From: Clostridium pasteurianum DSM 525 = ATCC 6013
GTDB taxonomy: Bacteria > Bacillota > Clostridia > Clostridiales > Clostridiaceae
Length of the DNA: 64,000 nucleotides
NCBI RefSeq assembly: GCF_000807255.1
Contig: NZ_CP009268.1
Location: forward strand, 3,006,384 to 3,070,383
Direction: 5' to 3'
In this document: positions 832 to 30,250 of the stretch, one piece after another
Layout: each line of letters starts with the position of its first letter
How positions within the stretch are numbered: position 1 is the first letter of the stretch
Notes under the pieces: model-generated
What the model was told of the DNA's origin: nothing
The model's input: the letters and a program-made list of their open reading frames with translations, nothing else
Database searches by the model: none
Made by a program: the position numbers and the translations under genes

Positions 832-1236
832 ATGTCCCCAGAAGAAAAAGCCTATATTGCTGGAATTGTAGATGGTGAAGGAAGTATAATGCTTATAAAA
901 TTTCATAATAATCAATTTCCAGCTCCTTGCTTAAGTATAAGTTCTACAACTATAGAGTTACTGCAATGGTTAAAGAATACAACTGAAATGGGTACTATAA
1001 AAAGTAAAAAAAATTATAATTTAGACAAACATAGAGATTCATTTACTTATATGGTAAAATACAACAATGCTATAAGCTTAATAAAAGAAATAGAACATTA
1101 TTTAGTAATTGAAAGTAAAAGGAAAAGAGCTAAATTAATCATTAAGGAATACAAAAGAGTACTCCTAGAAATGGCAGATATTCATCTACTATACTTGAAG
1201 AAAAAGAAAATTTCTATGCTAAATTTATTGGCATAA
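832..1236 (+). CDS. LAGLIDADG-type homing endonuclease, free-standing
   Basis: This protein of 134 residues carries a single LAGLIDADG-like motif near its N-terminus (YIAGIVDGEGS, residues 8-18), then a basic body rich in Lys. One-motif members of this family act as homodimers that cut long DNA targets. An in-frame GTG exists at 823, but the AAAGG at 816-820 is spaced better for the ATG at 832. The gene converges on the tmRNA gene and ends about 70 bases from its 3' end. That tmRNA gene holds a group I intron, so the endonuclease may be or have been the intron's mobility partner, although it lies outside the intron. No accessory gene lies next to it. Confidence 0.85.
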   Translation: MSPEEKAYIAGIVDGEGSIMLIKFHNNQFPAPCLSISSTTIELLQWLKNTTEMGTIKSKKNYNLDKHRDSFTYMVKYNNAISLIKEIEHYLVIESKRKRAKLIIKEYKRVLLEMADIHLLYLKKKKISMLNLLA

Positions 1237-1261: not shown

Positions 1262-1296
1262 AAATCCACATTAAAATTTAATTTTAATGTGGATTT
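1262..1296. terminator. Bidirectional terminator hairpin between the homing endonuclease and tmRNA genes
   Basis: A 15-bp perfect inverted repeat (AAATCCACATTAAAA and its complement) with a 5-nt loop lies between the 3' ends of the two convergent genes, with A/T runs on both sides. Confidence 0.75.
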
Positions 1297-1307: not shown

Positions 1308-1953
1308 TGGTGGAGGCGAGGGGTCGCTCTGGTTCTATTATTTCTAATAGCGCTGACTATATCTTACACATTTTGCATTTTTTATAATAAAAATGTGTCC
1401 TGGCATATTATAGAAGTCATATTATAGTTTAATACTTCTATCCTAGTACTTCTTATTCAATATTTTGAACTTAGAAGCCTATGAGTCGATACACGGCTGT
1501 TGAGTTTCCTCACATACCACTCGGTATTGCCGTCGTCACATATAGTACGTTACGGTTTCACCGATAAAGCCAAGTTATCACTTATGAATCACTTCATAAG
1601 GCGACTCTTATGAATCGAACCCCTGTCCGAAAATAGTAATATCTAAGCATCTCCGAGTGCAGTCTTTCCTTTGACATTCCCTCCATCAGACGCCGAAAGA
1701 CAGGCTTCTGACTTTAGTAGCTTCATAAATTCCGTTTCTAGGTCAAAGCTTTCCTAGACTCGTTTCCCCACTATCGACGCCCATCCTTAAGCCGTGGGAC
1801 TCAAAAGGCGGACGTAGCAGACTAGGCTGCTAAAGCTAAATTATCGTTTTTAGCGTTTATATTTAATCCCATAGTTTTTTAACGCGGGTCCACAGGTTCC
1901 CTCGACTCGCTTCTCAGGTACAACGTATCCCCGTCGAAACCAAATACGCCCCC
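1308..1953 (-). ncRNA. ssrA: tmRNA (ssrA), interrupted by a group I intron
   Basis: tmRNA rescues stalled ribosomes with SmpB, whose gene lies directly upstream. The 5' end GGGGGCG (1953-1947) pairs with CGCCUCC of the 3' end, followed by discriminator A and an encoded CCA (1310-1308). The conserved TTTCGACGGGG segment follows the 5' end. The tag frame at 1854-1822 reads AKNDNLALAA then TAG. The T-arm is split: AGGGG plus TTCGAT (to 1614) and A plus CCCCT (from 1324) are separated by 289 nt. Removing them restores a 5-bp T-stem with a 7-nt loop (UUCGAUA) and gives a 357-nt RNA, a normal tmRNA length. Confidence 0.95.
1325..1613 (-). other. Group I intron in the T-loop of tmRNA
   Basis: This 289-nt insert has the hallmarks of a self-splicing group I intron. 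The 5' exon ends in CGAU, which pairs with GUCG at intron positions 9-12, giving the required U-G wobble at the splice site (P1). The intron ends in G. An AAGATATAGTC element near the 3' end supplies AGUC, which pairs with an upstream GACU (P7). Internal helices include ACGGC/GCCGU, a UGAG-GAAA-CUCA hairpin, two helices with 8-9 bp stems before P7', and a CUAUUA-GAAA-UAAUAG hairpin before the 3' splice site. It encodes no protein. The exact splice sites are inferred from the restored T-loop and the terminal-G rule. Confidence 0.88.
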
Positions 1954-2170: not shown

Positions 2171-2641
2171 TTATCTCATGCTATTTTTCATTTGCCTATC
2201 AATTTCTCGCTTTGCAGCTTTTTCAAGCATTGTATCTCTTTTGTCATAGTCTTTTTTACCTTTAGCTACAGAAAGCTGCACTTTTACTCTTCCATTTTTA
2301 AGATATAAAGATAATGGTACTAGTGTGTACCCCTTCTGTGAAGTATAAGCTTCAAGTTTTCTTATCTCCACTTTATGCAAAAGTAATTTTCTCTTTCTTA
2401 AAGGATCTTTATTAAATATATTTCCCTTTTCATAAGGACTTATATGTACATTACACATAAATACTTCTCCATTATTTATCTCTGCATAACTATCTTTAAG
2501 ATTAGCTTTTCCCTGTCTTATAGATTTTACTTCTGTACCTACAAGTTCTATTCCAGATTCTATAGATTCCTCTATAAAATAATCATGTCTAGCTTTTCTA
2601 TTTTCAGCCAATGTATTGTTGGTCTTATTCTTTTTAGCCAT
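2171..2641 (-). CDS. smpB: SsrA-binding protein SmpB
   Basis: SmpB binds the tRNA-like domain of tmRNA and carries it into stalled ribosomes. The protein is 156 residues, the usual family length, with the typical N-terminal [10 protein letters not shown], the [23 protein letters not shown] core and the basic C-terminal tail ([21 protein letters not shown]). A GTG lies in frame 12 bases upstream, but the ATG start gives the standard MAKK N-terminus. The tmRNA gene follows on the same strand, and rnr lies upstream. RNase R, SmpB and tmRNA act in one trans-translation and decay pathway, so the cluster makes functional sense. Confidence 0.97.
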
Positions 2642-2824
2642 AAAAACACCCACTTTAGTTTATTGTAGTATTTTATTATACTATAAAAGAATATATAGGT
2701 CAATTTTTATTTCTATAATATTCCTATTTTACACTTGATTCACAGTAGGAGAAAAGGACGAAGCTTTTCCCCATTTGATATTTGTTCTTTGAACTTTATA
2801 CTTTGCTTTTTGTTTTTCATTACT

Positions 2825-5095
2825 CTACTCTTCATCTTCACTTATTTCAGGTTTATATGCCTCTAAGGTATCTTTCAATGCTCTTGGAGGATGAATTTCT
2901 TCTATATAATCTTCAGAATCCAGATTTTCATTATCTATTGAATTTTCTTCTGATAATTTATTTTCTTTAAGCTCATTATCATTTTCAGCTATCTCAAAAT
3001 ATATTTCATGGGAAGCCAAATTAACTTTTTGTACTTTTATTCTAACTTCATCTCCAAGCCTATATATTTTTTTGGTTCTTTCCCCAATAAGGCTTAGATG
3101 CTTTTCATCATATATATAGTAATCATCATTTAGATAGCTTATATGCACCAAACCTTCAATAGTGTTGGGCAATTCTACAAACATTCCAAAATTTGTTACA
3201 GAAGATATTATTCCATCATATTCTTCACCAATTTTTCCTTGCATATATTCTGCCTTTTTAAGATCATCTACTTCTCTTTCAGCTTCCTGTGCTACCCTCT
3301 CCATATCTGAAGATTGTACAGATGCATAATCAACAATTCCAATTAATTTTTTTGATCGCTCTTTATCTATTTTCCCGTGCAAAAATTCCTTTATTATTCT
3401 ATGAATCATAAGATCAGGATACCTTCTTATAGGTGAAGTAAAATGGCAATAATACTTGGCTGCAAGCCCAAAATGTCCTACGCATTCTGGTGAATATCTT
3501 GCCTGCTTTAAAGATCTTAAAAGTAAAGTACTAACTACAGTTTCTTCTTTTTTGCCCTTTACTGCTTCAATTATTTTTTGAAGCTCCTTTGGATGTACTT
3601 TATTAGTTCCCCACCTTACCACATATCCGAGATTATGAGCAAATTCATTGAAATGCTCTAATTTTTCTGTGTCTGGATCTTCATGAATTCTATAGACAAA
3701 AGGAAGATTAGTCCAAAACATATGTTCCGCTATGGTTTCATTACATACAAGCATAAATTCCTCAATAACTCTATTAGCTATTGCCCTTTCATAAGGTTTT
3801 ATGTCTATTGGCTTTCCCTGTTCATTTAATATTATTTTACTTTCTTGAAAATCAAAATCTATAGACCCTCTATTTATTCTTCTTTTATACAGTATATTGC
3901 ATAACTCTTCCATAGCCATAAAATCTTCATATAGATACTTATACTTTTCTATAGTTTCTTTGTCCTTATCTCTCATTATCTTTGTTACATCTGTGTAGGT
4001 CATTCTTTCATTTGTCTTTATTATACTTTCAAATACATCATGATTAACTACTTTTCCTTCTTCGTTTATCTCCATAAAGCAGCTTAATGCCAATCTGTCA
4101 ACTTTAGGATTTAAACTGCATATTCCATTTGAAAGCTTTCTTGGCAGCATTGGTATAACTCTATCAATCAGATAAACAGAAGTTCCTCTAAGAAGTGCTT
4201 CTTTATCTAAAGGATTTTTTTCTCTGACATAATTTGAAACATCTGCAATATGAACTCCAAGATAATAGTTACCATTTTCCAATTTTTCTATAGATACAGC
4301 ATCGTCTAAATCCTTAGCATCTTCACCATCTATAGTAACCATTTTTATATCTCTTAAATCTCTTCTATTTTTATATTCTTCTTCTGGTATTGTGTCTGGT
4401 ATCTTATCTGCAAAGTTCAATACTTTATCAGGAAATTCTTCTGGAAGTTTGTGCTTTTTTATAATTGTTAGTATGTCTACACCTTTATCCTCTTTTTTAC
4501 CTAATACTTCAATTATTTTTCCTTCAGGATTTCTCCTCTTTTCCGGCCATTCTATTATTTCTGCAATAACTACATCTCCAGTTTTTGCATTGCCTTTAAC
4601 ACTTTTTGGTATAAATACATCTTGATGTATTCTTACATCATCAGGAACTACAAAGCCAAAATTTTTACTATCTTCATATACCCCTATTATGGTTTTGTTG
4701 GCCCTTTCTAAAATTCTTATTATTTCCCCTTCACATTTTTTCCCGCCATTTTCTTCCCTAGTTATTTTGGCTACAACTTTATCTCCATTCATAGCACCAT
4801 TCATAAAAGAACTAGCTATAAAAATGTCAGGTCTTTCCCATTCACATATAACAAATCCAAATCCCTTTGCATTTCCTTGAAGTTTTCCTACCACAAGACC
4901 CATTCTTTCTGGTACACCATAATGTTTTGTCCTATTTTTAACTATAAGACCTTCCTGTTCCATATCTTTTAAAAGTTTTTTAAAATTTTTAGATTCTAAT
5001 CTCTTTATATCAAATATTCTTGAAAGTTCCAATATATTCATGGGTTTATATGCTTGTTCTCGCATAAATGCCACTATAGATTCTCTTAAGTTCAT
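2825..5095 (-). CDS. rnr: Ribonuclease R
   Basis: This is a 756-residue 3'-5' exoribonuclease of the RNB family that degrades structured RNA and, with tmRNA-SmpB, defective messages. An N-terminal winged-helix/RNase R segment is followed by cold-shock domains, the RNB catalytic core (VTIDGEDAKDLDDAVS, with its Asp cluster) and a C-terminal S1 domain (GEEYDGIISSVTNFGMFVELPNTIEGLVHIS). The tail is acidic. A GGAGTT ribosome binding site precedes the ATG. The gene lies 183 bases upstream of smpB. A terminator at 5203-5239 separates it from secG, so it probably has its own promoter in the AT-rich 5096-5200 gap. Confidence 0.97.
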   Translation of the reverse strand: MNLRESIVAFMREQAYKPMNILELSRIFDIKRLESKNFKKLLKDMEQEGLIVKNRTKHYGVPERMGLVVGKLQGNAKGFGFVICEWERPDIFIASSFMNGAMNGDKVVAKITREENGGKKCEGEIIRILERANKTIIGVYEDSKNFGFVVPDDVRIHQDVFIPKSVKGNAKTGDVVIAEIIEWPEKRRNPEGKIIEVLGKKEDKGVDILTIIKKHKLPEEFPDKVLNFADKIPDTIPEEEYKNRRDLRDIKMVTIDGEDAKDLDDAVSIEKLENGNYYLGVHIADVSNYVREKNPLDKEALLRGTSVYLIDRVIPMLPRKLSNGICSLNPKVDRLALSCFMEINEEGKVVNHDVFESIIKTNERMTYTDVTKIMRDKDKETIEKYKYLYEDFMAMEELCNILYKRRINRGSIDFDFQESKIILNEQGKPIDIKPYERAIANRVIEEFMLVCNETIAEHMFWTNLPFVYRIHEDPDTEKLEHFNEFAHNLGYVVRWGTNKVHPKELQKIIEAVKGKKEETVVSTLLLRSLKQARYSPECVGHFGLAAKYYCHFTSPIRRYPDLMIHRIIKEFLHGKIDKERSKKLIGIVDYASVQSSDMERVAQEAEREVDDLKKAEYMQGKIGEEYDGIISSVTNFGMFVELPNTIEGLVHISYLNDDYYIYDEKHLSLIGERTKKIYRLGDEVRIKVQKVNLASHEIYFEIAENDNELKENKLSEENSIDNENLDSEDYIEEIHPPRALKDTLEAYKPEISEDEE

Positions 5096-29951: not shown

Positions 29952-30171
29952 TTCATTTTAATATAAAATTTGCTATTTGTAAATATATTATTTCCATCTA
30001 TACATTTTTTTATCAACTTTAATTGTAATTTTATGATAAAAAATTTATATTTATTTTTATTTATAATATATTTTCTAATATTTCATTTATCATAAAATTC
30101 CAAATTGACTTAATCCTAGGTTTATGATATTATAAACTAAATTTTTAATATAGGTTTATATTTTCGGTTGG

Positions 30172-30250
30172 ACAAATAATTTATTTGTTTTCAAGAGATT
30201 GCGACTTTTGGGGTGGAAAGTTATATACTTTCTGCTTTTTTGTCGTTATT
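30172..30250 (+). promoter_or_regulatory. Structured leader of the antiporter gene, possible attenuator
   Basis: The leader contains a palindrome (ACAAATAA-T-TTATTTGT, 30172-30188). Next comes GCGAC/GTCGT pairing (30201-30205 with 30242-30246) that encloses a GAAAGT/ACTTTC hairpin followed by TGCTTTTTT. The last part looks like an intrinsic terminator about 80 bases before the start codon. I do not recognise a known riboswitch consensus. Confidence 0.35.

Follow-up and report, generated by a model that had tools for sequence, protein, structure and literature searches.

We identified a free-standing LAGLIDADG endonuclease gene beside the split gene for transfer-messenger RNA (tmRNA), ssrA, in a 64,000-nt stretch of Clostridium pasteurianum DSM 525 = ATCC 6013 DNA (the window), and found that the family of this nuclease adjoins ssrA, in convergent orientation, in both Clostridia and Bacilli. 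Comparison with related sequences confirms the insert in ssrA as a group I intron of an already published kind; the newer part is the nuclease gene next door. An earlier note on this DNA had proposed that the pairing of the intron with a nearby endonuclease deserved checking, and this proved the more interesting of its suggestions. Nuclease and intron are associated family-wide. We consider it likely that the locus represents collaborative homing, in which an intron and a free-standing nuclease spread together.

The association was assessed in 206 genomes of the taxonomic family, of which 191 contained a match to tmRNA (E ≤1e-20); one (G047), whose contig ends inside the tmRNA gene, was dropped, leaving 190. 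Intron-bearing tmRNA genes, all read from sequence, were found in 47 of these, and 143 genomes were called intronless (94 read by script, 3 with non-CCA ends read from printed lines, and 46 inferred from a full-length match only). A nuclease profile matched 47 of the 206 genomes. Any nuclease sequence was present in 32 of the 47 intron-bearing vs 15 of the 143 intronless genomes (p=6e-14), and a full-length nuclease in 23/47 vs 3/143 (p=1e-13); permuting intron status within genera gave p=5e-5 for both counts alike. A more sensitive search, covering 145 fetched loci only, added fragments in one intron-bearing genome (G125) and in four intronless ones (G003, G105, G147, and G191), and these stand outside the association counts. 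One genome (G100, locus L207) carried three tmRNA matches over the cut-off, which may be either true copies or contamination.

As read by eye from the tables, 43 of the 47 family genomes with a nuclease match carry the best match and ssrA on one contig, in convergent orientation; in the other four (G049, G054, G092, and G164) the two fall on different contigs. For 30 copies the fetched spans allowed the C-terminal end to be read, and 20 of these are 30-99 nt away from the tmRNA end (median 34). In G036 and G032 the nuclease is found ~50 kb from ssrA on the same contig. In several cases (e.g. G112, G155, and G180) a copy resembling the 3' end of ssrA stands just before the displaced nuclease, a pattern suggesting displacement of the nuclease by integrative elements that inserted at the end of ssrA. 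Such copies, located kilobases downstream of ssrA in L106 (G112), L120 (G155), L133 (G180), L134 (G161), and L135 (G190), are probably the ends of integrative elements at ssrA, including where ssrA is split by the intron. For delimiting mobile units by empty-site comparison of nearby species, downstream homology was too low in most pairs.

A wider scan of genome contigs, made without reference to tmRNA, found no relatives with the window protein alone and 251 with an 18-sequence nuclease alignment, and our survey covers the best 80 of these. Within this set, 75 relatives are in genomes with an intron-bearing tmRNA, four are in intronless genomes, and for one no tmRNA was found. An opposite-strand tmRNA lies within the fetched span for 67 of the 80, intron-bearing in 64 and intronless in 3. 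Among the rest, five (L228, L229, L239, L242, and L243) are family genomes with an intron-bearing ssrA farther off, L255 is the intronless genome G174, six (L231, L252, L293, L295, L298, and L299) are in genomes with an intron-bearing tmRNA, nearness being established for only part of them, and the genome of L254 gave no tmRNA match at E up to 1e-15. In L254 a group II intron fragment (RF00029, 41.3 bits) follows right after the nuclease at 3408-3479 on the minus strand, at the contig end. The convergent arrangement was present in 20/20 Bacillaceae loci scanned with Rfam. Over the matched span the reading frame is open in 72/80 copies and has stops in 8/80, including the intronless L258, whose copy carries four stops. 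The motif DGEG, which holds the catalytic acid, is kept in 78/80, the exceptions being L255 (DSKG) and L260 (N-terminus outside the match). Sixteen more genomes of the class and phylum had nuclease matches, and the T-arm was readable in 14: nine are intron-bearing, and five are intronless with nuclease copies that are only partial or stop-containing. A search of plasmids gave no nuclease match, whereas ten phage records had one, all at <40% identity among the matches listed, and the best match among viral contigs reached ~41% identity.

The genomes form a decay series, which runs from an intron with an intact nuclease gene, through an intron with a broken gene (as in the window) and an intron alone, to an intronless ssrA with a nuclease remnant. 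Within the genus, an intact copy is found in G001 (Clostridium acidisoli), an interrupted copy in G002 (C. akagii), a remnant 13 kb away in G004, and in the intronless G003 a short remnant of the N-terminus, separated from ssrA by 55 nt. This series agrees with a homing life cycle where death of the nuclease has to precede any loss of the intron. The three intronless family genomes with a full-length copy bear on the same question. In G174 the catalytic acid is lost (DSKG for DGEG), and in G109 and G110 the T-loop facing the nuclease has C, not U, at position -1; a catalytic copy together with an uninterrupted site carrying U at -1 was found in 0/3, these being three cases only. In G109 and G110 the full-length nuclease lies 1.1 kb from the intronless ssrA, with an insertion of ~1.1 kb between them, and it may have another target or have been stranded recently.

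Purifying selection acts on the intact nuclease: the ratio of nonsynonymous to synonymous substitution rates (dN/dS) in the five closest pairs was 0.046, 0.035, 0.142, 0.123, and 0.069. Moreover, nuclease and intron distances are correlated (r 0.92 over 46 of the 63 loci with readable introns), and the partial correlation given the divergence of smpB, the gene for the tmRNA partner protein, was 0.67 (n=46, p=5e-4), or 0.32 in the family set (n=16 genomes, p=0.0012). G005 differs from G157 and G158 by 0.10-0.11 in the nuclease and 0.09 in the intron, yet by 0.21 in smpB, distances of the kind that joint transfer would give.

With regard to the tmRNA gene itself, the earlier note had described a gene that encodes the tag AKNDNLALAA and is intact apart from a group I intron in its T-loop, and this description holds. 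The Rfam model RF00023 matches the minus strand at 1944-1611, breaking off where continuation into the 3' exon would be expected, and no other tmRNA match in the whole genome exceeds the cut-off; the tag translates as proposed. ARAGORN missed the split gene of the window. On the scanned loci L221-L280 the same program reported no tmRNA for intron-form genes, its calls being L223, L225, and L258, all three intronless. By eye, the intron follows T-loop nucleotide 6, behind UUCGAU, with U at -1, a P1 of CGAU/GUCG containing a U.G pair, and a terminal G at 1325, in agreement with the wobble pair and terminal G that had been noticed. Removal of the 289 nt was expected to restore a 5-bp T-stem and a 7-nt loop, and these are seen in the empty site of the intronless same-genus genome G003, formed by ACAGGGGTTCGAT then ACCCCTCGCCTCCACCA; its ssrA reads GGGGTTCGAT with ACCCC directly after. 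Because G003 carries this exact empty site, the intron boundaries are confirmed independently. Among five genomes of the genus the insert is present in G000, G001, G002, and G004 and absent in G003. Given the interrupted T-loop, formation of mature tmRNA must require excision of the intron.

The covariance-model check that the note had proposed gave a divided result, in that RF00023 recognized the tmRNA at 138.1 bits, whereas the general model RF00028 reached 22.5 bits (E=9e-4) against a gathering score of 50. This match, to 1628-1334, came up solely on a 351-nt span and was absent from the results of two wider Rfam searches. Since a score of 22.5 bits is too weak as a test of group I identity, covariation on related introns was used instead. 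The canonical structure was written from the window intron and then counted on an alignment of related introns of Clostridia and Bacilli, 42 in number; 46 sequences had been selected, of which four longer ones (L248, L251, L256, and L257) were left out. The canonical P2-P9 fold comprises 64 pairs, with 96.1% of cells standard and 42/64 pairs changed on both sides; none of 500 shuffled controls scored as high as the fold, and slid controls reached 35-40%. Three pairs of P3, which forms a pseudoknot with P7, changed on both sides, and P7 gives no covariation because it is almost invariant. The comparison thus strongly supports a predicted P2-P9 structure with the P3/P7 pseudoknot.

Williams (2002) reportedly described intron-form tmRNA genes with a group I intron at T-loop position 7. 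The note's remark that the position may not be new is borne out by a later compilation, in which most of 883 unique intron-form tmRNAs, from 21 phyla, have their intron at loop position 7 (PMC11915505), and on this basis the window intron belongs to a known kind. It shares with these genes the site after loop nucleotide 6, the U at -1, the terminal G, a length of ~290 nt, and the lack of an internal reading frame, and the intron itself shows no difference from their description there (PMC11915505). It also resembles, by description, the Clostridium botulinum tmRNA intron, a 287-nt intron behind a 338-nt 5' exon with the substrate CGAT as in the window P1, for which the portion consulted reports self-splicing (PMC2729099). 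The compilation counts only intron-internal endonucleases, giving LAGLIDADG genes inside 36/883 tmRNA introns, and neither the sections consulted, including the whole Results, nor a term search gave any mention of a neighboring free-standing endonuclease gene (PMC11915505). A literature search that reached few subscription papers returned no account of a free-standing endonuclease adjoining ssrA.

The LAGLIDADG gene of the window stands apart from the intron, with 71 nt between it and the tmRNA end, and its ATG at 832 is preceded by the ribosome-binding-like GAAAGG. The protein matches Pfam LAGLIDADG_1 at 23.7 bits, just above the cut-off of 23.1; at E ≤0.01 this model matches 16/18 relatives, of which the first scores 20.2 bits, below the cut-off. 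Among proteins of solved structure, those closest in sequence are intron-encoded LAGLIDADG enzymes, the best being the one-motif I-MsoI (profile E=2e-8, residues 3-107). The ssrA-side nucleases resemble I-MsoI-type endonucleases in the DGEG motif, which the window copy retains, and differ from them in having an extra conserved C-terminal TPRNG[RK]Y segment, in being free-standing, and in being opposite in strand to the gene that they would target. In the window copy, the C-terminal part matches relatives in another frame (two separate tblastn pieces), and the conserved C-terminal TPRNG[RK]Y segment is missing. Because of this frame change near the C-terminus, the copy is predicted to be inactive, and it is the sole copy of the nuclease in its genome. 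The pair is therefore probably a fossil in this organism, in which the intron must still splice for ribosome rescue.

Features of the window bearing on the split tmRNA gene and its neighbors (strand "." where none applies)
Feature	Position	Strand	Remarks
ssrA (tmRNA gene) with intron	1308..1953	-	646 nt; RF00023 138.1 bits; ends by eye
5' exon of tmRNA	1614..1953	-	340 nt; ends UUCGAU in T-loop; empty site in G003
Tag reading frame AKNDNLALAA + stop	1822..1854	-	translated from 1854-1822
Group I intron (by comparison)	1325..1613	-	289 nt; no large reading frame; predicted P2-P9 with P3/P7 pseudoknot
3' exon of tmRNA	1308..1324	-	17 nt, ends CCA
smpB (tmRNA partner protein), upstream of ssrA	2171..2653	-	Pfam SmpB 211 bits
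Free-standing one-motif LAGLIDADG gene	832..1236	+	open reading frame listed from GTG 823; convergent with ssrA
Long inverted repeat between the two convergent genes (LAGLIDADG gene, ssrA)	1263..1295	.	by eye

The inverted repeat, read by eye, is probably a shared terminator of the two convergent genes. Elsewhere in the window, a Na+ riboswitch aptamer (RF03071) was identified at 30166-30222 on the plus strand, with 62.9 bits, well above its gathering score.

We hypothesize that the free-standing endonuclease would cut the uninterrupted T-loop region of ssrA alleles lacking the intron, and that the intron, by splitting the nuclease target, would protect its carrier from self-cutting. Repair from an intron-bearing copy could then carry over the intron together with the nuclease gene, located a few tens of bases downstream. 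An active nuclease would punish loss of the intron; after decay of the nuclease, which has probably occurred in this genome, the intron could persist for a while or be lost, and where it is lost, remnants of the nuclease would stay behind next to an ssrA without intron, as seen in G003. At the DNA level, a gene for a stem-loop reads nearly as a palindrome, and such a site would be suited to a dimeric one-motif enzyme. Collaborative homing is known from phages, namely from cyanophage psbA and F-CphI (PMC6083498; review PMC3984707), and its definition in the sections we drew on fits the ssrA-nuclease pair (PMC6083498): an intron without an open reading frame lies beside a free-standing endonuclease gene. 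As in the F-CphI system, the intron would block self-cleavage (PMC6083498). That system, as described there, involves a phage, a protein gene, and an Endo VII-type nuclease with demonstrated cleavage, whereas the ssrA system involves a bacterial chromosome, an RNA gene, and a LAGLIDADG-type nuclease, is conserved over Clostridia and Bacilli, and has a cleavage step that we infer. We lean slightly toward a more specific statement, that this LAGLIDADG family is dedicated to ssrA in Clostridia and Bacilli, where it would cut the intronless T-loop, spread the intron in trans, and, in the manner of an addiction module, maintain an essential RNA gene in its split state.

Several observations weigh against collaborative homing at this locus. 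Cleavage by the nuclease, its site, protection by the intron, and joint transfer are inferred from sequence comparison, and the window's own nuclease is probably inactive. The intron persists without the nuclease, since 15/47 intron-bearing family genomes have no profile match (G125 has a fragment, and three have <350 nt downstream), and 15/143 intronless genomes hold nuclease sequence, with fragments in four more. Ten of the 30 copies measured lie 1.1-14.6 kb from the tmRNA end. The C at -1 in G109 and G110 may be due to chance, as it is common among intronless loci (53/94 read), and the nuclease of these two genomes is under purifying selection (0.046) in the absence of the intron. Furthermore, the partial correlation between nuclease and intron drops to 0.43 (46 loci) and 0.27 (16 genomes) given the ssrA exon, and the split between Clostridia and Bacilli may drive part of the correlation in the larger set.

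Some of these observations could also arise if the intron were inherited mostly vertically and an unrelated nuclease used the 3' flank of ssrA through intronless homing, so that the two were linked by location only. The flanks of ssrA are insertion hot spots, the displaced nucleases and ssrA-3'-end-like copies show that other insertions occur there, and nuclease sequence in 15/143 intronless genomes is consistent with such a use. Location alone, however, does not predict that the nuclease depends on the intron (full-length copies in 23/47 vs 3/143 genomes, within-genus p=5e-5, and 75 of the best 80 relatives), nor does it predict the correlated divergence of the two, and we regard this explanation as unlikely. 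A nuclease that once resided inside the intron and was later expelled, leaving its adjacency to ssrA as a relic, would be in keeping with the LAGLIDADG genes inside 36/883 introns in the published compilation (PMC11915505). Wherever both could be placed on one contig, however, the gene is on the strand opposite to ssrA; it is also located beyond the 3' exon, and its intact copies evolve under purifying selection. These features make such an origin very doubtful.

Some LAGLIDADG proteins are maturases, and a protein that aids splicing of the tmRNA intron would likewise co-occur with it. This possibility is lowered by the many intron-bearing genomes that lack the gene: 15/47 in the family gave no profile match and several others have only remnants. 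In intron-bearing genomes without the nuclease the downstream genes look unrelated by eye, and inspection by eye, with no profile search run there, revealed no other nuclease among the neighbors of ssrA. The catalytic acid is moreover kept in nearly all relatives, and another clostridial tmRNA intron self-splices in vitro according to the excerpt consulted (PMC2729099), so that we consider a maturase role improbable. The earlier note had also suggested that the intron acts as a control point, that is, as a regulatory switch of ribosome rescue. Mature tmRNA would indeed require splicing; however, the presence of the intron is patchy within genera, and no regulatory feature was found, none having been sought beyond the fold. 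Nothing supports this suggestion, the evidence pointing neither for nor against regulation, and we give it very little credence.

For annotation, a nuclease gene of this family beside ssrA predicts a split tmRNA of the kind that ARAGORN misses. More generally, tmRNA introns have been published as mostly lacking an endonuclease, which left open how they spread. If collaborative homing does operate at ssrA, a dedicated nuclease encoded just outside the gene would answer this question and explain why few tmRNA introns hold an endonuclease of their own. It would also widen collaborative homing, known from phages, to include bacterial chromosomes, and it predicts that loss of the intron needs prior decay of the nuclease.
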